Below, piece after piece: positions 40,418 through 51,237 of a stretch of 64,000 nucleotides of DNA. The notes under the pieces are model-generated. The model was not told where the DNA came from and searched no databases. It worked only from the letters and a program-made list of their open reading frames with translations. The stretch covers positions 186,001 through 250,000 of the forward strand of contig NZ_SJSN01000001.1 in assembly GCF_004331675.1 (NCBI RefSeq), given 5' to 3'. Both the position numbers and the translations under genes were made by a program. Position 1 is the first letter of the stretch. Each line of letters opens with the position of its first letter. The stretch is from Pedobacter frigidisoli. GTDB taxonomy: Bacteria > Bacteroidota > Bacteroidia > Sphingobacteriales > Sphingobacteriaceae.

Positions 40418-41470
40418 CTATTTGGTTATAAATTTTTGAGGAATCGGTGGCTCCTCTTTAGCCTCGTACTGTTTAAATGTTTGTTCTAATCGCCGTTTTA
40501 TTTTCGAAATCAGCAACCTTGGTGACAGCACTTTTACACATTCCCCGAAACCCAAAATTTCTCTTTCTAATTCGTAATTTAAAACAACATCTATCCTAAA
40601 GGTAGTCGTTTTTTCATTCTTACTCAATACCACTTGAGAGGAATGTAAAGGTTTGGTAACCACATAAGGGGCATGGTCGTTTGTAAATTCCAAAATCACC
40701 TTTTGTGCTCTATCTCTTTCATTTTTGGTAACGCCGATCAAATCATCATAGTAGCGATCGAAATCTATGCCTTGATAACTTACAAATTCTTCGTTTGGTA
40801 ACTCTTGAAACTCAACAATTCTATCTAAAGCGAGGTTTAAAATTCCCGGACGCTTTTTTGCCTTGCAGATTAAAAACCATCGGTTTCTGTATTCCTTCAG
40901 CAGATATGGATAGTAAATTCCCTGTTGCGCTTGTTGTGCTTTGAACGATTTATACTCAATTAACAGCGACCGTTTGTTTAAAACCGCTTGATATAAAGGT
41001 GGAATACATTCTAAACCCTTAACCAATTTATTGCTTTCCAGCTGAATATTATTACCGCTTTGTTTAGTCGATTTGTATAGGTTATTTTCCAAACGGGCAA
41101 TCATATCGCTCATTTCATCGAAATAATTAAAGGCGTTGAACTGTTTAAGTACGCCTACAATTTCTTTCATTTTATCTACATCAGCGTTATTTATTGGTGC
41201 TTTTGTAATGCTAAAGCTCGGGTTTTCATAAGCATAAAAGCGTTTATCCTGAACCACAATTGGCGCATTATAACCCAGTTTATCGCTTCTCATCAATTGA
41301 ATATCCGCCTGAATGGTTCGTTTGCTTACGCCAGAAGTTATTCCCTCTAACTCATAAAGTGTTGCTGAAACCTTTTCTATGATATCTTCCAAGGTCCATT
41401 TACGGAATCGATTTTTCAGACAATCATCAATGGTTTTGTATCGAATTAGTGCTAGTTTATTTACGGCCAT
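40418..41470 (-). CDS. WYL-domain transcriptional regulator
   Basis: The 350-residue protein has an N-terminal helix-turn-helix region (about 1-80, ending SKRTIQADIQLMRSD) and a WYL domain at about 155-225. The core YPYLLKEYRNRWFLICK at 187-203 contains the RWFLI version of the W-Y-L triad; a C-terminal ligand-sensing extension follows. WYL proteins sense nucleotides or nucleic acids in several defence and repair regulators. It is divergent from the Ro60 gene across 285 bp containing two similar operator-like sites, so it probably controls the RNA-repair operon. It also runs into the GH32 gene with a 7-bp gap. Confidence 0.9.
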   Translation of the reverse strand: MAVNKLALIRYKTIDDCLKNRFRKWTLEDIIEKVSATLYELEGITSGVSKRTIQADIQLMRSDKLGYNAPIVVQDKRFYAYENPSFSITKAPINNADVDKMKEIVGVLKQFNAFNYFDEMSDMIARLENNLYKSTKQSGNNIQLESNKLVKGLECIPPLYQAVLNKRSLLIEYKSFKAQQAQQGIYYPYLLKEYRNRWFLICKAKKRPGILNLALDRIVEFQELPNEEFVSYQGIDFDRYYDDLIGVTKNERDRAQKVILEFTNDHAPYVVTKPLHSSQVVLSKNEKTTTFRIDVVLNYELEREILGFGECVKVLSPRLLISKIKRRLEQTFKQYEAKEEPPIPQKFITK

Positions 41471-41540
41471 TTGAATGAATTTAGATTTCAGCTAAAAATC
41501 TGACGATTTAGCTCATCTAAATATAGAAAAGTCCTCAATA

Positions 41541-41563
41541 ACTACGCAATACAATTGCGCAAT
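41541..41563. promoter_or_regulatory. Operator-like site 1 in the WYL-Ro60 gap
   Basis: ACTACGC, nine bases, then GCGCAAT. It also contains a perfect 12-bp palindrome AATTGCGCAATT (41553-41564). It shares ACTRCGC-N9-GCG with site 2. Confidence 0.5.
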
Positions 41564-41603
41564 TAGTATAGATAGAAACTAATTTGTCGATATTTTAAAT
41601 TTT

Positions 41604-41622
41604 ATTTGATTGATTATCAAAT
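41604..41622. promoter_or_regulatory. Inverted repeat in the WYL-Ro60 gap
   Basis: ATTTGAT (41604-41610) and ATCAAAT (41616-41622) form a perfect dyad with a 5-bp spacer in an AT-rich region. It may be a third protein site or part of a promoter. Confidence 0.35.
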
Positions 41623-41652
41623 AAATAATAAAGAATATCAGAATTATTTTTT

Positions 41653-41675
41653 ACTGCGCAAATCTGTCGCGTAGT
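41653..41675. promoter_or_regulatory. Operator-like site 2 in the WYL-Ro60 gap
   Basis: ACTGCGC, nine bases, then GCGTAGT: a dyad with one mismatch. It overlaps the expected -33 region upstream of a -7-like box CATCTTTG at 41684-41691, so a bound protein would block the Ro60 promoter. Confidence 0.55.
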
Positions 41676-41755
41676 CGTAGTGGCATCTTTGTAATGTCAG
41701 AACGATAGCAAATATTTAAATCTGGCAGAAATGTTAAACAATAAACTTAGCGATT

Positions 41756-43273
41756 ATGAAATTCAATTTTTTTAACACAAGAAAACAGATTACTACAAAT
41801 CATGAAAATGCAAAAGCATACACCATGACTCCCGAGTTGGAGTTGTATGCTGCCGTGGTAACAACAGGATTGAATGATTCCTTTTATGAATCTGGCAATA
41901 CTAGGTTAAACAGAATTAAGGAACTAATCGCAAAGTGTGATCCAACATTTGTTGCCAGGTTAGCCATTTATGCCCGTACTGAAATGAACTTGAGGTCGGT
42001 GCCAATGGTATTGTCGGTAGAATTGGCGAAAAGAATTTCTGGCGATTCGATTGTAAGCAAAACCGTTAGCAAAGTGGTTTTAAGAGCTGATGAAATAACG
42101 GAATTGTTAGCCTATTATCAAATTGCCAATGAAAGAAAAGGAACAAAAAAGTTAAATAAACTTTCGAAGCAAATTCAGAAAGGTTTGGTTGATTCTTTCA
42201 ATAGGTTTGATGAATACCAATTTGCAAAATACAATAGAAACACTGATGTAAAACTAAAAGATGCTTTGTTTTTGGTACACCCAAAAGCTAAAGATGGTTT
42301 GCAACAAGAGATTTTCAATAAAATCGCATCAGATAATTTGACAACACCATACACATGGGAAACTGAACTTTCTGAATTGGGTAAAACGAAATTTGAAAAT
42401 GAACATGCAAAATCTTTTGCCTTTACCAGAAAATGGGAAGCGTTAATCGAAAGCAAGAAAGTTGGCTATATGGCTTTGATGAGAAATCTTCGAAACATTT
42501 TGGATGCAAACGTTTCTGCCAGACATATAGAAATGGTTTGTTCTTATTTAAGCAATGAAAAAGCAGTTTTAAATTCGAAACAACTTCCATTTAGATTTCT
42601 TTCTGCTTACAGAGAGTTAAAATCAGCAAAATCGAGTTTTACCTCGGTAATATTAGGTGCTTTGGAAGACGCTGTAATGTGTAGTGCAAAGAACATAAAA
42701 GGTTTTGGTTTCGATACTTCAGTAGTTATTGCTTGTGATGTTTCGGGCTCGATGCAAAAACCAGTATCAGCAAAAAGCACGGTATTACTTTATGATATTG
42801 GTTTAATGCTTGCGATGTTAATGCAATCGCAATGCAAAAACGTAACAACTGGAATGTTTGGCGATAGCTATAAAGTAATCAACATGCCTAAACGAAATGT
42901 TTTAGCGAACGTAATGGAATATTACAGACGCGAGGGTGAAGTTGGTTATGCGACAAATGGTTACTTGGTAATTGATGATTTACTTCGTCGAAGAGCAGTG
43001 GTTGATAAAGTAATGATATTCACGGATACCCAAATGTGGGATAACAGTTACACAGACAATTCTTTTGCTAAATCGTGGAAGAGTTACAAAAACATAGCAC
43101 CAAATGCAAAGCTGTATTTGTTCAATTTGGCAGGCTACAAAACCCTACCGATAGATGTTAGACAAAATGATGTTTATTTATTGGCTGGTTGGTCTGATAA
43201 AATTTTCGATATACTTTCGGGTATGGAAAATGCAGTTTCTGCATTAGAGAAAATCAGTCAGATTGAAATATAA
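41756..43273 (+). CDS. Ro60 protein (TROVE and vWA domains)
   Basis: The 505-residue protein is a bacterial Ro60 homologue (Rsr type). Residues about 20-300 form the helical TROVE ring that binds misfolded RNA and Y RNAs (LYAAVVTTGLNDSFYES, ARLAIYARTEMNLRSVPMVL). A von Willebrand A domain follows, with the MIDAS motif DVSGSM at about 328-333 and a later TDTQMWD. It lacks a signal peptide, so it works in the cytosol. In other bacteria Ro60 joins the exonuclease PNPase through a Y RNA. Here five Y RNA-like genes follow directly, then RNA-repair enzymes, which is strong context support. Confidence 0.95.
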   Translation: MKFNFFNTRKQITTNHENAKAYTMTPELELYAAVVTTGLNDSFYESGNTRLNRIKELIAKCDPTFVARLAIYARTEMNLRSVPMVLSVELAKRISGDSIVSKTVSKVVLRADEITELLAYYQIANERKGTKKLNKLSKQIQKGLVDSFNRFDEYQFAKYNRNTDVKLKDALFLVHPKAKDGLQQEIFNKIASDNLTTPYTWETELSELGKTKFENEHAKSFAFTRKWEALIESKKVGYMALMRNLRNILDANVSARHIEMVCSYLSNEKAVLNSKQLPFRFLSAYRELKSAKSSFTSVILGALEDAVMCSAKNIKGFGFDTSVVIACDVSGSMQKPVSAKSTVLLYDIGLMLAMLMQSQCKNVTTGMFGDSYKVINMPKRNVLANVMEYYRREGEVGYATNGYLVIDDLLRRRAVVDKVMIFTDTQMWDNSYTDNSFAKSWKSYKNIAPNAKLYLFNLAGYKTLPIDVRQNDVYLLAGWSDKIFDILSGMENAVSALEKISQIEI

Positions 43274-43277
43274 ACCC

Positions 43278-43303
43278 ATCCCACAGTAAATTGGCTGTGG
43301 GAT
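43278..43303 (+). other. Hairpin between the Ro60 gene and the Y RNA array
   Basis: ATCCCACAG (43278-43286) pairs with CTGTGGGAT (43295-43303), 9 bp without mismatch. No T-run follows, so it is more likely a processing or stabilising hairpin than a terminator. Confidence 0.6.
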
Positions 43304-43326
43304 ATTAAATAAAAATATTGATAAAT

Positions 43327-43458
43327 AAGCAAGTGTCGTAGAGAAGAGTTACTTCGCAATTGGGATGCCCTGGTTGTAGGTTCGAGTCCTACCTCTTTAA
43401 TTAGAGTAGCTCAATGGTTAGAGCAGGAAAATAGTCTCTTTCGTAATTTACCTTGCTT
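43327..43458 (+). ncRNA. Y RNA-like gene 1, with T arm and D arm
   Basis: Outer stem AAGCAAG (43327-43333) pairs with CTTGCTT (43452-43458). TGTCGT (43334-43339), 8 variable bases, and GTTACTTCG (43348-43356) form the shared block. AGAGA/TCTCT forms an inner helix. The middle holds a perfect T arm (43376-43392, loop TTCGAGT), a short capped stem CTCT/AGAG (43393-43406) and a perfect D arm (43409-43424, GCTC/GAGC). So the order is T arm, capped acceptor-like stem, D arm. It encodes no protein. It lies just downstream of the Ro60 gene. Confidence 0.85.
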
Positions 43459-43476
43459 TATAAAAGAATGAAAATA

Positions 43477-43611
43477 TTAGATGAGTGCCGTAAAGAAGAG
43501 TTACTTCGATTCACGCCCAGGATGTTGGTTAAAATCCAACTTCCGATTAATTCGGAATAGTTTAATTAAAAAACATGGGGAAAGGTCTTTTCTTGAGTTT
43601 CGCCTTACTAA
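43477..43611 (+). ncRNA. Y RNA-like gene 2, with T-like and D-like arms
   Basis: The block TGCCGT (43486-43491), AAAGAAGA, GTTACTTCG (43500-43508) repeats gene 1. TTAG (43477-43480) and CTAA (43608-43611), plus GAG/CTT, form the outer stem. In the middle are a T-like arm (43524-43540, GTTGG/CCAAC, loop TTAAAAT, so the usual TTCG is lost), a capped hairpin TTCCGA/TCGGAA (43541-43557), and a D-like arm GTTT/AAAC (43560-43574). The CCCA/TGGG pair encloses these. The same order as gene 1, with changed bases but kept pairing. Confidence 0.8.
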
Positions 43612-43617
43612 ACACAA

Positions 43618-43751
43618 AACAGAATGCCGTAAATAAGGGTTACTTCGTCGCAAATTAAGGGGAGGAATAATGAAGTTGTAAAACCAGCAAGATTATCCGG
43701 TTCGACTCCGGCAAGACATGCCCCAAAACCTTTATTGCCTTTGTTTCTGTT
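43618..43751 (+). ncRNA. Y RNA-like gene 3, with T arm
   Basis: The outer stem AACAGAA (43618-43624) pairs with TTCTGTT (43745-43751). The block is TGCCGT (43625-43630), AAATAAGG, GTTACTTCG (43639-43647); AAATAAGG partly pairs with CCTTTATT (43729-43736). A T arm CCGG/CCGG with loop TTCGACT (43697-43711) lies inside a GGGG/CCCC helix (43659-43662, 43721-43724). A weak D-like segment precedes the T arm, the opposite order to genes 1 and 2. Confidence 0.8.
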
Positions 43752-43756
43752 AAAAA

Positions 43757-43853
43757 TTTAAGATGCCGTTGGTAAGTGTTACTTCGATTGGTTGAATATA
43801 GTGCAGGTTCGAATCCTGCTAGTAAATACTCACTTTCCAGTATTGCTCTTAAA
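43757..43853 (+). ncRNA. Y RNA-like gene 4, short, T arm only
   Basis: The outer stem TTTAAGA (43757-43763) pairs with TCTTAAA (43847-43853). The block is TGCCGT (43764-43769), TGGTAAGT, GTTACTTCG (43778-43786); TGGTAAGT pairs with ACTTTCCA (43832-43839) with one mismatch. A perfect T arm GCAGG/CCTGC, loop TTCGAAT, is at 43803-43819. No D arm is seen. 97 nt. Confidence 0.82.
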
Positions 43854-43870
43854 ATTTTACACTCCTAAAA

Positions 43871-43940
43871 AATGAGTGCCGTTGAAAAATGTTACTTCGT
43901 CCAAATTAGAAACAACACATTTTTCGCCAATAGCCTCATT
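43871..43940 (+). ncRNA. Y RNA-like gene 5, minimal, no tRNA-like part
   Basis: AATGAG (43871-43876) pairs with CTCATT (43935-43940). The block is TGCCGT (43877-43882), TGAAAAAT, GTTACTTCG (43891-43899). TGAAAAAT pairs with ATTTTTCG (43919-43926), 8 bp counting one G-U pair. The loop has no T or D arm. So only the presumed Ro60-binding stem remains, 70 nt. Confidence 0.78.
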
Positions 43941-43970
43941 AATTAAAAAATAAATTAAATTTAGAAACCC

Positions 43971-44000
43971 CCTCGGCTAGGTGAATGATGCCGGCCGAGG
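43971..44000 (+). other. G/C-rich hairpin between the Y RNA array and rlaP1
   Basis: CCTCGGC (43971-43977) pairs with GCCGAGG (43994-44000). It lies 15 bp before the rlaP1 ATG. It is one of the most G/C-rich stretches of this locus and could be a leader or RNA-processing element. Confidence 0.5.
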
Positions 44001-44015
44001 ATTAGTTAGAGAAAA

Positions 44016-44777
44016 ATGAAAACAACGATAATTAAAAAGCTTGAAGAAATAGAAAAGGCAAACGATATAACAATACTATTTGCTTGCGAGTCTGGAAGTA
44101 GAGGATGGGAATTTCCATCGCCTGATAGTGATTATGATGTTCGGTTTATTTACGTTAGGCCACTCAATTACTATCTTTCTGTTTTAGATAAGGATGACCA
44201 ATTGCGTTTTCCTATAAATGAGGAATTGGATATTTATGGCTGGGACATTAGGAAAGTGTTAAAACTTATCAGGAAATCAAACACTACCCCTTTCGAATGG
44301 CTGCAGTCGCCAATAATCTATAGAGAGAAAGAAAAATTCAGAGACGATTTATGGCAACTTTGCCAATCATATTTCTATCAGAAAAACAACATAAACCATT
44401 ATCTGGGTATTGCTCACGGTGCTTTGGAAACGATAATTAATGATGATGAAATCAAAATAAAAAAGCTTTTCTACATACTTCGTCCTTTGCTTTCAGCAAA
44501 GTGGTGTTTAGAAAAGGGCACGATAGCTCCAATGACGATAAGTCCATTATTAACTTTGATGCCTGAAAAATTACAGACAATAGTTAAAGATTTAATTGAT
44601 TTAAAATCTACTTCTGCAGAGGGGTTTATTATAAAAATCAATGCCGAGCTGAAAACATATATTAATGAGCAATTTGAACTTTGCGGTAATGGCGCTAAAG
44701 ACTTACCAAAAGAAAGCTTTGATCTTGAAAAGCTAGATATTTTCTTTAGAAATACAATAAGCCGTTATGACAATTAA
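44016..44777 (+). CDS. RlaP-type nucleotidyltransferase 1
   Basis: The 253-residue protein belongs to the polymerase-beta-like RlaP family linked to RNA repair. The active-site signature GSRGWEFPSPDSDYDVRF has GSRG at 27-30 and DSDYD at 37-41, giving the aspartates that bind two metals. The rest is helical. RlaP proteins are inferred to add nucleotides to, or otherwise modify, RNA ends; this has not been shown for most members. It follows the Y RNA array and overlaps the next gene by 11 bp. Confidence 0.88.
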   Translation: MKTTIIKKLEEIEKANDITILFACESGSRGWEFPSPDSDYDVRFIYVRPLNYYLSVLDKDDQLRFPINEELDIYGWDIRKVLKLIRKSNTTPFEWLQSPIIYREKEKFRDDLWQLCQSYFYQKNNINHYLGIAHGALETIINDDEIKIKKLFYILRPLLSAKWCLEKGTIAPMTISPLLTLMPEKLQTIVKDLIDLKSTSAEGFIIKINAELKTYINEQFELCGNGAKDLPKESFDLEKLDIFFRNTISRYDN

Positions 44778-45828
44778 AGATTTAAAGGATAAAAACTTGC
44801 TGTTGTTTGAATGTTTAAGTGGCAGCAAGGCTTACGGATTAGATACACCTCAATCAGATACTGACATCAAGGGAATTTATTACATGCCAAAAGACATGTT
44901 TTTTGGCTTGAAATATATCCCGCAAATCAACAACGAAAGTAATGATGAAGTTTACTTTGAAATTGGTCGATTTGTTGAGCTATTGATAAAAAACAATCCC
45001 AATATTGTTGAGATTTTAGCCACACCTGAAGATTGCATTTTATTTAAGCACCCGATAATGGAAAAGCTCAAACTTGAAATGGTCTTATCTAAATTGTGTA
45101 AAGATACATTTGGTGGTTATGCGTTAACTCAGATAAGAAAAGCAAAAGGATTGAATAAGAAAATTTTAAATCCGATGCCCAAAACTAGAAAAACAGTATT
45201 GGATTTTTGTTTCATTACCGAAAATTATTCATCAGTTAAAGCTAAAAATTGGCTCAAAAAACGGCATATTTTACAAGCAAATTGTGGGATTTCGAAAATC
45301 CCAAATGCTAAAAACTTATATGCTTTATTTTATGATGAGGAAAACAAATGTGGCTATAAGGGAATCGCACATAAAGAAAACTCAAATGATGTTTCTGTAT
45401 CATCTATACCGAATGGAGAAAAAGAGATATCGTATTTGTTTTTCAATCAGGATAGTTATTCATCATACTGCAAAGAATACAGCGAGTATTGGGAATGGGT
45501 AGAAAAACGAAACGAAGACCGATATAGCTTAAATAAAAGTCATGGTAAAGATTATGACGCCAAAAACATGATGCATACCATTAGACTTTTACAAGTTGCT
45601 CTTGAAATTGTTCGTGACGGAAAATTAAATGTAAAACGGAAAAACCGAGATGAGTTGTTATCGATAAAAAGAGGCGAATTGGATTATGATGAGGTATTAA
45701 AAATGGCAGAAGAATTAATGCTAAAAATTGAACAAGAGTCAGCAGAAAGTAAGTTGCCTGAAAAACCAGATGCTCAGCTTATCGAATCGATACTTGTGGA
45801 AATGAGGGCTACACTTTATGCCTATTAA
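44767..45828 (+). CDS. RlaP-type nucleotidyltransferase 2
   Basis: The 353-residue protein is a second, more distant RlaP family member. It has GSKAYGLDTPQSDTDIKGIY at residues 19-38, the metal-binding SDTD, and a longer C-terminal helical domain. It overlaps the first RlaP gene by 11 bp, and rtcB begins 10 bp after its stop, so the three are one translation unit. Two different RlaP proteins in a row suggest two separate end reactions, or a heterodimer. Substrates are unknown. Confidence 0.87.
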   Translation: MTIKDLKDKNLLLFECLSGSKAYGLDTPQSDTDIKGIYYMPKDMFFGLKYIPQINNESNDEVYFEIGRFVELLIKNNPNIVEILATPEDCILFKHPIMEKLKLEMVLSKLCKDTFGGYALTQIRKAKGLNKKILNPMPKTRKTVLDFCFITENYSSVKAKNWLKKRHILQANCGISKIPNAKNLYALFYDEENKCGYKGIAHKENSNDVSVSSIPNGEKEISYLFFNQDSYSSYCKEYSEYWEWVEKRNEDRYSLNKSHGKDYDAKNMMHTIRLLQVALEIVRDGKLNVKRKNRDELLSIKRGELDYDEVLKMAEELMLKIEQESAESKLPEKPDAQLIESILVEMRATLYAY

Positions 45829-45838
45829 AGATTAAATA

Positions 45839-47263
45839 ATGAAAAACGACATAACAGGAAAAGACCTAAAAGAAATAGGTTATTCCGAGGGGAAAATATT
45901 AGGCTTGGCTTTAGATATCTTGAAAGATAATTTCCCAGATATTGAAGAGAAAGAGTTATTAGTCCTATTTAAAAAAGTAAAAGATTATCCAGAAAGTTTT
46001 TTGGATGATGAAATATTGAGTGCTTTGGCGACAGCGATTATTGAAGAGGCAAATCCTAAATCGGATGGTACAATCGAGTTGGTTAAAAATGCCAAGGATT
46101 ATACCATTTTCGGTGCTGATTACATTGAGGATGGCGCCAGAAACCAAATGGATATTGCGATGAAACTGCCCATTTCGGTTGCTGGAGCATTGATGCCCGA
46201 TGCACATCAAGGTTATGGTTTGCCAATCGGTGGTGTCTTAGCTACCCGAAATGCCATTATTCCTTATGGCGTTGGTGTAGATATTGGTTGCCGAATGGCT
46301 TTGAGTATTTTCGATATCCCGGAAAAACATTACTTCGGAAAAGATGCGATGTACAAACGCGAATTAATTGCTTTTACCAAGTTTGGCGCTGGTCAGAATT
46401 TTAAGGGAGATGAAAAAGCCGACCACGAGGTTTTAGAAAACGAGGACTTCAATTCGACACCTTTCCTTAAAAATTTACACGGAAAAGCCTGGGCACAATT
46501 GGGTACCTCGGGCGGCGGAAACCATTTTGTGGAGTGGGGAGTTATCGATTTCGCAGAGCGAGATGAAATTCTGAATATTGATAAAGGGCGTTATGTGGCT
46601 TTATTAACACATTCAGGTTCTCGTGGTTTTGGCGCTACCATCGCCGGGCACTATACCAAATTGGCTAAAGATATTTGTAAACTTCCGAAAGAGGCGTTGA
46701 ATTTGGCATATCTCGATTTAAACTCTGCGGAGGGACAAGAATATTGGATTGCCATGAACTTAGCTGGCGATTATGCTTCTGCTTGCCATGAGGTGATTCA
46801 TAAACGACTAACCAAAGCGATTGGCGCAAAGGTTTTAGCGAAAGTAGAAAACCACCATAATTTCGCTTGGAAAGAAATGCTTGATGGAGAAGAAGTTATC
46901 GTTCACAGAAAGGGTGCTACGCCAGCTGGAAATGGTGTGATGGGAATTATTCCAGGAAGCATGACTGCACCAGGGTTTTTGGTTCGAGGAAAAGGTGAAA
47001 CAAGTGCTATCAATTCGGCATCACACGGTGCAGGCAGACAAATGAGTCGTACGAAAGCCATTCAATCGATTACGAAATCAGAAATGAAAGCGATTTTAAA
47101 AGATCATAATGTAACCCTGATTGGTGCTGGTTTGGATGAAGCACCAATGGCTTATAAGGATATCCATAAAGTGATGTCTGCACAAACTGAATTGGTTGAT
47201 GTTATCGCTAATTTCGAACCTAAAATGGTGCGAATGGCAGATGATGGAAGTCGCGAAGATTAG
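45839..47263 (+). CDS. rtcB: RtcB 3'-phosphate/5'-OH RNA ligase
   Basis: The 474-residue protein is RtcB, which joins RNA 2',3'-cyclic phosphate or 3'-phosphate ends to 5'-OH ends using GTP and Mn2+. Motifs in order: DAHQGYGLPIGG, GVDIGCRM (the metal-binding Cys), GTSGGGNHFVEWG, LTHSGSRGFG, and SHGAGR with the histidine (about 396) that takes GMP. The family ligates broken tRNA and other RNAs. As the last gene of the Ro60/Y RNA/RlaP operon it defines the locus as an RNA-repair system. A bidirectional terminator follows. Confidence 0.96.
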   Translation: MKNDITGKDLKEIGYSEGKILGLALDILKDNFPDIEEKELLVLFKKVKDYPESFLDDEILSALATAIIEEANPKSDGTIELVKNAKDYTIFGADYIEDGARNQMDIAMKLPISVAGALMPDAHQGYGLPIGGVLATRNAIIPYGVGVDIGCRMALSIFDIPEKHYFGKDAMYKRELIAFTKFGAGQNFKGDEKADHEVLENEDFNSTPFLKNLHGKAWAQLGTSGGGNHFVEWGVIDFAERDEILNIDKGRYVALLTHSGSRGFGATIAGHYTKLAKDICKLPKEALNLAYLDLNSAEGQEYWIAMNLAGDYASACHEVIHKRLTKAIGAKVLAKVENHHNFAWKEMLDGEEVIVHRKGATPAGNGVMGIIPGSMTAPGFLVRGKGETSAINSASHGAGRQMSRTKAIQSITKSEMKAILKDHNVTLIGAGLDEAPMAYKDIHKVMSAQTELVDVIANFEPKMVRMADDGSRED

Positions 47264-50125: not shown

Positions 50126-50887
50126 CTACTTTAAACTATTTGGCAACATTTTTAGAAATGCCAAGCAGTTATCGTAGTTTAGTTCGTAAAAATTAACGCC
50201 TAAATTAATACTATTGTAATACTCAGGCTGATGTTCCTTGTAATATTTCTCTGATGGAATTTTCCAAAAATCGATTCCCATTTTTTTAGCTAAAAACCAT
50301 TTTTCAAGCAACCTGGCTGCTCTACCGTTTCCATCTCTAAATGGATGAATATGTGCAAAACGCAAATGAATTAATGAGGCAAAATAAAATGTTTCCTCAA
50401 TAGTGATGTCTAAAGAAAGTAAATGATTTATTTCTTTGAAGAACGCTTTCATAGTTTCCGCCACCAATTCTGCCTCAACAGCTAAGTAAACCAATCCTGA
50501 TTGACCAAAAACGCCAACTTTATCATTTCTATATTTACCTCTTAAGCTTGCAATAACTAACTGCTTTGCTAAAATTTTATGGCTTTTTAAAAAATTCTTT
50601 TCATCGAGATTTGTTTCTTGAGCTAATTTATATGCCGAAATCAAATCCTCGATTTCTTGAACCTCTTTGGTTGGTTTAAACTTTTCTTCAGAAAAACCAA
50701 GGTTCATAAATGAATTTAAATCAATTGTATTTCCCTCAATATTTGAAGAATATACCGCAGATGCCTGAGTTTGGTAGCCCAAATCTCCATTTTGTTCAGT
50801 AAGGTCAAATTTATTGACGAGATTTTCTAAATCCTTGCCAATCAAAGAATGATACTGTTCAAAATATGTTTTATCTGCGATTTTCAT
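50126..50887 (-). CDS. Fic-domain adenylyltransferase, class II
   Basis: The 253-residue protein has the Fic loop HPFRDGNGR at residues 181-189. Before the Fic domain, S47-SNI-E51-G52 fits the inhibitory [S/T]xxxE[G/N] motif in the N-terminal helix, which defines class II (as in the SoFic and FICD types). It therefore probably self-inhibits. AMPylation target is unknown. It lies immediately downstream of a RelE-like module on the same strand; a fused C-terminal domain is not present. Confidence 0.88.
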   Translation of the reverse strand: MKIADKTYFEQYHSLIGKDLENLVNKFDLTEQNGDLGYQTQASAVYSSNIEGNTIDLNSFMNLGFSEEKFKPTKEVQEIEDLISAYKLAQETNLDEKNFLKSHKILAKQLVIASLRGKYRNDKVGVFGQSGLVYLAVEAELVAETMKAFFKEINHLLSLDITIEETFYFASLIHLRFAHIHPFRDGNGRAARLLEKWFLAKKMGIDFWKIPSEKYYKEHQPEYYNSINLGVNFYELNYDNCLAFLKMLPNSLK

Positions 50888-50904
50888 TTAAAGACACTTG
50901 TATC

Positions 50905-51237
50905 TTAAAGCGACCGGATAATTTGCAATAGCACCTTTTTATCGATACTATTCTCTTCTGATTTATCATAAATGGTTAGCATATTTATAACAAATCCCTC
51001 TTCGTGATTTGAAACTAGATAAGTGATAACACGATAGCCGCCACTTTTACCCTTTCCCTTACTTTTTACCGCTAATCTAATTTTGAATAAACCGGAACCT
51101 AAATCGTTCCCTTGTAAAGGATTTGTAATTAAATGCGTTTCGAGCTCACGAAGTTCATCAACAATAGACAGATGTTTCTTTTTATAGACCTTTGCTTTTC
51201 TAATAAATGTCTCCGAATAGGCTATTCTATTAGCCAT
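50905..51237 (-). CDS. RelE-like toxin
   Basis: The 110-residue basic protein has a RelE/ParE-like pattern: N-terminal helices with ETFIRKAKVYKKKH, then strands including LFKIRLAVKSKGKGKSGGYRVITYLV, the core beta sheet with the conserved R and basic patch, and a C-terminal IYDKSE segment. RelE toxins cut mRNA at the ribosome. The start overlaps the antitoxin stop by one base (51237). Unlike the toxin at 47368, the frame is intact. Confidence 0.8.
   Translation of the reverse strand: MANRIAYSETFIRKAKVYKKKHLSIVDELRELETHLITNPLQGNDLGSGLFKIRLAVKSKGKGKSGGYRVITYLVSNHEEGFVINMLTIYDKSEENSIDKKVLLQIIRSL

Follow-up and report, generated by a model that had tools for sequence, protein, structure and literature searches.

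A predicted array of Y RNAs with differing heads beside Ro60 in Pedobacter frigidisoli and related Bacteroidota

The DNA analysed here, referred to as the window, is a stretch of 64,000 nucleotides (nt) from Pedobacter frigidisoli (RefSeq assembly GCF_004331675.1, contig NZ_SJSN01000001.1, positions 186,001 to 250,000 of the forward strand), and all positions given below are counted from its first letter. Positions 40418-47263 carry, in this order, a divergent WYL gene, a Ro60 gene, a gap of 742 base pairs (bp; 43274-44015) with five RNA genes, two RlaP genes and rtcB. This gene content, order and gap size had been described in a first-pass annotation made from the letters alone, and they were confirmed, as the open reading frames (ORFs) are in place and their Pfam matches lie above cut-off. 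The identification of the five gap RNAs as a predicted Y RNA array is well supported by sequence, covariation and co-occurrence, as set out below.

The RNAs were located with the head query GTYGTNNNNAARNGTTACTTCG, allowing up to three mismatches (matched form GYCGTnnnnAARnGTTACTTCG). Five matches with 0-1 mismatch each were obtained in the window, at 43335, 43487, 43626, 43765 and 43878, compared with a mean of 0.52 and a maximum of 3 in 100 dinucleotide shuffles, which bears out the five tandem RNA genes first read there; at up to one mismatch, these five are the only matches in the whole genome. Each head marks the beginning of an RNA about 75-140 nt long, whose 5' and 3' parts form two helices with each other, leading into UUACUUCG and then a variable head. 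The stem and UUACUUCG are common to the five RNAs, and the upper domains differ, the majority of them resembling tRNA. The features of the gap are listed below; the classes A, C, T and b are motif-based labels, not functional ones, R1 is a covariance model trained on class C relatives, RNA 3 included, E is the expectation value, and L numbers denote loci of relatives.

43326-43458, plus strand: Y RNA 1, class A, Ro60 stem and circularly permuted tRNA-like domain (T-arm, acceptor hairpin, D-arm); YrlA match and covariation.
43476-43613, plus strand: Y RNA 2, degenerate class A, with T-loop UUAAAAU, acceptor hairpin and worn D-arm; R1 E 3.8e-4.
43615-43753, plus strand: Y RNA 3, class C, with an unpermuted acceptor-like stem, an arm carrying a 3x3 internal loop and a T-arm on the Ro60 stem; R1 E 7e-30 (member of the training set).
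43754-43859, plus strand: Y RNA 4, class T, Ro60 stem and T-arm only; R1 E 4.6e-6.
43867-43942, plus strand: Y RNA 5, class b, Ro60 stem without an upper module, at the end of the array; R1 E 2.6e-7, folding z -3.46.
43277-43304, plus strand: stem-loop between the Ro60 stop codon and RNA 1; changed pairs in L048, L049, L050, L156 and L159.
43971-44000, plus strand: stem-loop in the leader of the next gene; changed pairs in the same five loci.

An intact permuted counterpart of RNA 2 is present in L156, and RNA 4 aligns with 3 Pedobacter-group and 11 Flavobacterium counterparts. The hairpin at 43971-44000 directly precedes the post-array gene in the window and in five Pedobacter-group relatives, whatever gene follows, and no counterpart of the stem-loop at 43277-43304 was seen in L051, L055 and L101.

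At the gathering cut-offs of Rfam, none of the five RNAs is named. At a relaxed threshold, RNA 1 aligns end to end with YrlA (RF02553) at 37.2 bits (E 3.1e-6), compared with a gathering score of 69 bits; no YrlA match at gathering level was found in the window or in the 15 relatives scanned. The Rfam covariance search proposed in the first pass thus yielded nothing at gathering level, but a YrlA match at RNA 1 below it. The R1 model also matches RNAs 2, 4 and 5 at E 0.001, a threshold at which RNA 1 is unmatched, and ARAGORN found 0 tRNA genes in the window.

Conserved secondary structure across relatives, on which the original proposal depended, is present, since classes A and C covary. The class C alignment contained 44 of 49 distinct sequences (48 and the window), four matches with an upper part of at least 95 nt being excluded. 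With a hand-written structure, 98.8% of the cells pair, compared with 26-52% in slid controls; 68 cells are changed on both sides, where shuffles give 15.8 and none of 500 comes as high; a both-side change is seen in 5 pairs, compared with 3.3 (2 of 500). RNAalifold agreed on the Ro60 stem and on the three inner helices, with 30 pairs of which 17 are changed on both sides; it missed the GGGG:CCCC stem, which hardly varies, and placed four other pairs there (columns 32-36 with 47-51). For class A, 42 of 72 selected sequences, taken from 117 with both arms, gave the T-arm, a six-pair acceptor hairpin, the D-arm and the lower stem, with 15 of 20 pairs changed on both sides; this alignment gave no prediction of the upper helix of the Ro60 stem. 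Covariation in the basal stem therefore covers both helices in class C and the lower helix only in class A, and RNAs 2, 4 and 5 are linked to it through their R1 match only. Single-sequence folding is modest (z from -1.0 to -3.5; for RNA 5, at -3.46, 0 of 200 shuffles were as stable), and the predicted structures rest on covariation across relatives.

The class A head is a YrlA-like permuted form, with T-arm, acceptor hairpin and D-arm in this order and the Ro60 stem at the position of the anticodon arm. The class C head, which is not named by Rfam, has the natural order: a GGGG:CCCC stem adjoins the Ro60 stem and is followed by an invariant linker AGGA, by an arm with ATANN:NNTAT pairing, a GNA/AAG internal loop and an apical hairpin, and by a T-arm with CCGG or CCAG and a loop that is mostly UUCGANU. 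Pairing at both variable positions of this arm (AU/GC/GU and CG/UA) is kept in 44 of 44 sequences, and there is no D-arm. On topology, class C can be argued to be a D-arm-less tRNA, in which the invariant GG of the linker may act as the D-loop guanines that dock the T-loop. Because class A is permuted with the stem at the anticodon place, and class C is unpermuted with its acceptor-like stem at the Ro60 stem, the two classes appear to grip a tRNA-like body at opposite ends. Only the T-arm is left in RNA 4, and only the stem in RNA 5.

The array was then compared with relatives, using a scan of named genomes that yielded 579 relatives, of which the best 80 were kept (64-81% Ro60 identity); duplicated loci, such as L157, L158 and L160 (the same as L048, L049 and L050), were counted once. 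With the window, 81 loci were tallied, 80 of them assessable. Downstream of Ro60, a stem test detected 443 RNAs, compared with 59 in 1.94 Mb of DNA taken from upstream and from the opposite strand as a control; for this count, overlapping head matches were reduced to the best per place, and weak stems and upper parts longer than about 125 nt were excluded. The number of RNAs per locus is 3 (10 loci), 4 (14), 5 (21), 6 (14), 7 (11), 8 (4), 9 (2), 10 (3) or 11 (1), and the single locus with 0 is L117, whose contig ends about 200 nt after Ro60. The gap comparison suggested in the first pass thus shows that arrays of 3-11 RNAs recur in all assessable loci: the array is broader than was supposed and is not peculiar to this genome, and five RNAs, the arrangement first noted, is the commonest number and not special.

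The differing upper domains seen beside Ro60 recur as classes in other genera. Among the 81 loci, class A is found in 74, a C or C-like head in 57, class T in 43 and a bare stem in 66, and A occurs together with C or a C-like head in 52. An exact class C core is present as a single copy in 48 of the 80 named loci, or in 62 when up to three mismatches are allowed, and never twice; this conservation as a single copy suggests a separate function for class C. The order A, C, T and final b is common to Pedobacter and Flavobacterium, many Flavobacterium loci having an extra bare RNA between C and T. In more distant Ro60 loci, for which short stretches were read with a loose motif, few or no heads are often found (for example L017, L029 and L030). 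In a second Pedobacter group (L162-L164, L166 and L167; Ro60 about 59-61% identical to that of the window), RtcB precedes Ro60, and the first head of L162, L163, L166 and L167 is another T-arm type inside a G-rich/C-rich stem.

Stems alone, with the heads removed, were also used to assign the class through the nearest RNA of another genus, and the result was compared with shuffles. The class was recovered for 17 of 20 RNAs from Pedobacter to Flavobacterium (null mean 6.4, largest 15), for 79 of 104 in the reverse direction (25.8, largest 63), and for 12 of 12 from the genus coded Sph to Flavobacterium (2.8, largest 10). Since stems identify the class across Pedobacter and Flavobacterium, with Chryseobacterium excepted, the RNA classes appear to be ancient within a part of the phylum.

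Co-occurrence with Ro60 points in the same direction. Large genome searches, run with strict filters, found Ro60 in 21 of 145 same-genus genomes and R1 in 21, the two sets being identical, and the listed R1 matches fall within about 2 kb of Ro60. Among 395 genomes of the phylum, Ro60 is present in 30 and R1 in 17, all of them within those 30; that R1 is lacking from genomes without Ro60 is independent of the overlap with the training set. The patchy distribution (21 of 145 genomes), together with Ro60 identities to the window of about 67-75% in Flavobacterium and about 59-62% in the second Pedobacter group, suggests horizontal transfer.

The protein genes of the locus are as follows.

40418-41470, minus strand: WYL/WCX transcriptional regulator; Pfam WYL 40.4 bits and WCX 35.6 bits, both above cut-off.
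41756-43273, plus strand: Ro60/Rsr, 505 amino acids; Pfam TROVE 110.4 bits and vWA_Ro60 34 bits, above cut-off.
44016-44777, plus strand: RlaP-family nucleotidyltransferase 1; PF10127 236.6 bits, above cut-off.
44767-45828, plus strand: RlaP-family nucleotidyltransferase 2; PF10127 75.7 bits (above cut-off) over residues 12-125, the C-terminal part lying beyond the Pfam match.
45839-47263, plus strand: RtcB-type RNA ligase; PF01139 266.2 bits, above cut-off.

The Ro60 protein is 81% identical to that of Pedobacter soli, and it reaches 24.7 bits with the NCBIfam Rsr equivalog NF041674, whose cut-off is 900; RtcB is likewise below the cut-offs of all four NCBIfam models that it matched. The two overlapping genes first called polymerase-beta-like belong to the RlaP family (PF10127) and overlap by 11 nt. 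Their translations contain GSRGW..DSDYD and GSKAYG..SDTD, respectively, presumably the acidic catalytic motif of RlaP kept in both ORFs. A predicted structure of RlaP2 (mean predicted local distance difference test score, pLDDT, 77.4; below 50 at residues 15-36 and 46-56) had no match in the PDB at E <= 0.001. PADLOC gave no match for Ro60, RlaP or RtcB, and it matched the WYL protein to CRISPR-associated WYL models and partly to a Cas3c model. RtcA and RtcR (CARF, sigma-54) are not among the genes of the locus; no search for RtcA elsewhere in the genome was made. Elsewhere in the window, ORFs at 50126-51237 resemble, by eye, a Fic-type protein and a small RelE-like protein, and five Flavo-1 RNAs (14813, 15962, 21276, 36855 and 54890) score above the Rfam gathering score.

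In the 80 named loci, a divergent WYL gene lies within 3 kb in 34, RtcB within 5 kb in 25, RlaP1 in 6 and RlaP2 in 5. RtcB and RlaP, which the first-pass annotation had treated as constant parts of the locus, are therefore optional neighbours of Ro60 and the Y array. In L156, the nearest relative encountered (Ro60 87% identical), these five classes recur and RtcB is present, but RlaP is missing. Other genes can stand beside the array: a T4-type RNA ligase, Hen1, a PNKP ligase and a kinase-phosphatase in L121 (10117-14650), the RlaP pair with Hen1 in L118 (12986-14452), and a calcineurin-like phosphoesterase which, in L050 (10149-10724), replaces the RlaP pair between the array and RtcB. A T4 Rnl2-type ligase family, scanned with one member, occurs in 14 loci.

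Genes for tRNAs are also frequent there. ARAGORN found 144 in the 1.36 Mb of the 80 loci, compared with about 12 expected from the density in the genome of the window. At least three occur in 16 of the 80 loci, which include related species and are hence non-independent, and 137 of their 138 genes lie on the Ro60 strand. Arrays of 4-17 tRNA genes were found near Ro60 and the Y array in L073, L078, L081, L082, L085, L087, L088, L093, L113 and L123, and the tRNA matches in 8 loci score 31.7-76.9 bits, most of them above 45. A tRNA-Lys(UUU) gene lies in or at the edge of the Y array in four different assemblies (L073 10475, L078 6191, L081 10157 and L123 7321). We also considered that a locus has either repair enzymes or tRNA arrays, not both; p was 0.007 with RtcB, RlaP and L121, and rose to 0.26 when the 14 loci with T4 Rnl2-type ligases were included, the loci being non-independent, and the idea was rejected.

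The 285-bp divergent region between the WYL and Ro60 genes contains two candidate operators of the TACGCAA/TTGCGCA type.

41543-41561, no strand assigned: conserved palindrome TACGCAATACAATTGCGCA, candidate operator 1, nearly the same in L048, L049 and L050.
41655-41673, no strand assigned: imperfect palindrome-like site TGCGCAAATCTGTCGCGTA, candidate operator 2, kept in L048-L050, and preceding a GGCATCTTTG box at 41682-41691.

The first-pass annotation had noted upstream DNA shared with the WYL gene; with two palindrome-like sites that recur in three relatives, common control is plausible. A sigma-70 promoter scan gave 15 matches, compared with 22.9 in shuffles. In Flavobacterium L060, L062, L067 and L077, the DNA from Ro60 to the array contains a palindrome of this kind, followed by a box, ATCTTTG (L060 and L062) or ATATTTG (L067 and L077). 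Because palindrome and box lie between Ro60 and the array, the array of these loci may own a WYL-controlled promoter, to which WYL would be predicted to bind.

Ro60 genes of phages (crAss-like phages and Arthrobacter phage Atuin) resemble these loci in lying near tRNA genes; among the phage matches listed, they are 23-42% identical to the Ro60 of the window. In the crAss-like phage csAssE-Sib (OR575929.1, our L193), three Y RNA stems (3485, 3627 and 3773) lie just before Ro60. The second and third enclose the tRNA-Tyr and tRNA-Lys of the record, so that whole tRNA bodies would be clamped from the acceptor side; the predicted fold of the Tyr RNA is a cloverleaf inside the Y stem, and the Lys cloverleaf comes from ARAGORN only. 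No Y stem passed in crAss001, cr111_1, cr106_1 or Atuin except one in L197, which sits inside a coding gene and was taken as chance, and the exact class C core occurs 0 times in the viral contigs. A Listeria phage with putative Y RNAs has been described (PMC12282133).

Because rows of differing heads on one stem recur in relatives, one Ro60 ring may be fitted with several interchangeable Y RNA adaptors, used together with exchangeable RNA enzymes; we put the probability of this reading at about 0.6. Ro60 would bind the stem of each Y RNA, and the upper module would dock a tRNA-handling enzyme through its T-loop/elbow, the candidates being RtcB, RlaP and tRNA-modifying enzymes (PNPase in known cases), so that the Y RNA would choose which enzyme acts on the RNA held by the ring. 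The point of attachment of the tRNA-like body would be the anticodon end in RNA 1 and the acceptor end in RNA 3, and the bare-stem RNA would close or reserve the ring. RtcB would seal broken RNA ends, for which RlaP may first restore lost nucleotides, and the WYL protein probably controls Ro60 and the array through the paired palindromes. In favour of the adaptor reading, some of the loci have neighbouring genes concerned with RNA (RtcB, RlaP, Hen1, Pnkp, T4-type ligases, tRNA arrays).

Several points weigh against it. The adaptor mechanism is deduced from sequence, with Ro60 binding, expression and substrates as predictions. None of divergent WYL, RtcB and RlaP is found in 41 of the 80 named loci, so that these are not obligate partners, and the 80 loci are the closest of 579 and not a random sample. 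As to structure, the further pair types in class C (12) fall below the 13.9 of the shuffles, and four of the five RNAs fold just slightly better than shuffles. Among the Ro60-positive genomes of the phylum, 13 of 30 have no R1 match; within the genus, 4 of the 21 matches are training genomes (window, L048, L049 and L050), and only 9 best matches are strong (E < 1e-20, true class C), the other 12, with E from 4e-6 to 2e-12, being due to a C-like head or to the Ro60 stem. The stem-class assignments from Flavobacterium to Sph (46 of 104, mean 23.2, largest 46) and from Pedobacter to Sph (12 of 20, mean 6.7, largest 12) are equalled by a shuffle. Those from Flavobacterium and from Pedobacter to Chryseobacterium are near the null (28 of 104 and 8 of 20, with null means of 30.7 and 6.8), and from Chryseobacterium to Flavobacterium 120 of 212 compare with a mean of 64.2 but a largest shuffle of 123. 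An extension of the stem-class link to Chryseobacterium was therefore rejected; there, heads may have been reshuffled or stems may have drifted.

A wider version of the adaptor reading, which we hold as tentative and somewhat doubtful, would make Ro60 of Bacteroidota a modular hub for the care of tRNAs: a ring with up to 11 Y RNAs would present tRNA-like bodies from opposite ends (A anchored at the anticodon, C at the acceptor), and would pass RNAs to exchangeable enzymes or lie next to spare tRNA sets; the two annotated csAssE-Sib tRNAs would be Y RNAs with an entire tRNA body clamped in their Ro60 stem.

Alternatively, the Y RNAs could be decoys, whose tRNA-like modules, one per attacker, absorb nucleases or toxins that attack tRNAs while Ro60 and RtcB mend the cuts. 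The modules lack a normal anticodon loop, tRNA clusters and the excess of tRNA genes near Ro60 would fit, and competitive inhibition of an anticodon nuclease by YrlA has been suggested (PMC7790460); but bare and T-only RNAs would be poor decoys, a decoy has no need of the Ro60 stem, the locus has no known nuclease, and the opposition of repair enzymes and tRNA arrays fell to p 0.26, so that we consider decoys unlikely. It is improbable that the RNAs are redundant paralogues without separate jobs, kept for dose or by local duplication: a copy number of 3-11, the worn RNA 2 and the stem-class link lost in Chryseobacterium would agree with this, whereas order and modules are kept from Pedobacter to Flavobacterium, class stems match across these two genera, and class C remains single copy. 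Still less probable is a gap that acts mainly in cis, as a leader on whose stems Ro60 tunes rlaP-rtcB expression; RNA 5 and the conserved hairpin do directly precede the next start codon, but arrays are kept where the downstream gene differs (phosphoesterase in L050, RtcB in L156), and those of L060 and L062 carry their own operator-like palindrome and ATCTTTG box. Decayed tRNA genes, to which the T-arm and D-arm sequences, a sub-gathering Rfam tRNA score of 20.3 bits at RNA 1 and one L048 class A RNA at the Rfam tRNA cut-off (29.5 bits) might point, can practically be dismissed, given the lack of ARAGORN hits in the window, the permuted arm order with covarying acceptor pairs, and a common stem foreign to tRNA.

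Neither Y RNAs nor their mimicry of tRNA are new, and an operon of the Ro60-Y-Rtc kind is already known. A bacterial Y RNA has been presented as a circular permutation of tRNA (PMC11472068), and YrlA binds Rsr through its stem and PNPase through its tRNA-like domain (PMC8394870, which with PMC4726728 also reviews Y RNA and RNA modification). The array agrees with YrlA and other bacterial Y RNAs (Salmonella, Deinococcus, Mycobacterium; RF02553) in its place beside Ro60, its basal stem and the permuted tRNA-like RNA 1; it differs in having 3-11 RNAs per locus, recurring classes, C, T and b heads, and no gathering-level YrlA match. The Salmonella rsr-yrlBA-rtcBA RNA repair operon (PMC7790460) also unites Ro60, Y RNAs and RtcB, whereas here RtcA is absent from the operon, WYL stands in for RtcR, five RNAs replace two, and two RlaP genes are present. 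In RlaP-ligase repair systems, RlaP occurs beside an RNA ligase and is predicted to restore lost nucleotides to RNA (PMC7824862, which treats RlaP in jumbo phages), but here two RlaP genes directly follow a Y RNA array. In searches of an open library, which did not include the Chen 2014 survey, we found no description of multi-class Y arrays of Bacteroidota or of class C.

RlaP-ligase RNA repair systems were reportedly treated by Burroughs and Aravind in 2016. The survey by Chen in 2014 reportedly recorded Y RNAs close to Ro60 in over 250 species, each with at least one tRNA-like RNA, so that several Y RNAs per species would not be new; to our knowledge, detailed work on bacterial Y RNAs has so far dealt with one or two of them in each species. 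Some annotated phage tRNAs may be Y RNAs. Class C adds a T-arm RNA that has no name in Rfam. With several recurring heads on one predicted Ro60 stem, these loci would allow a direct test of whether Y RNAs choose what the ring does.

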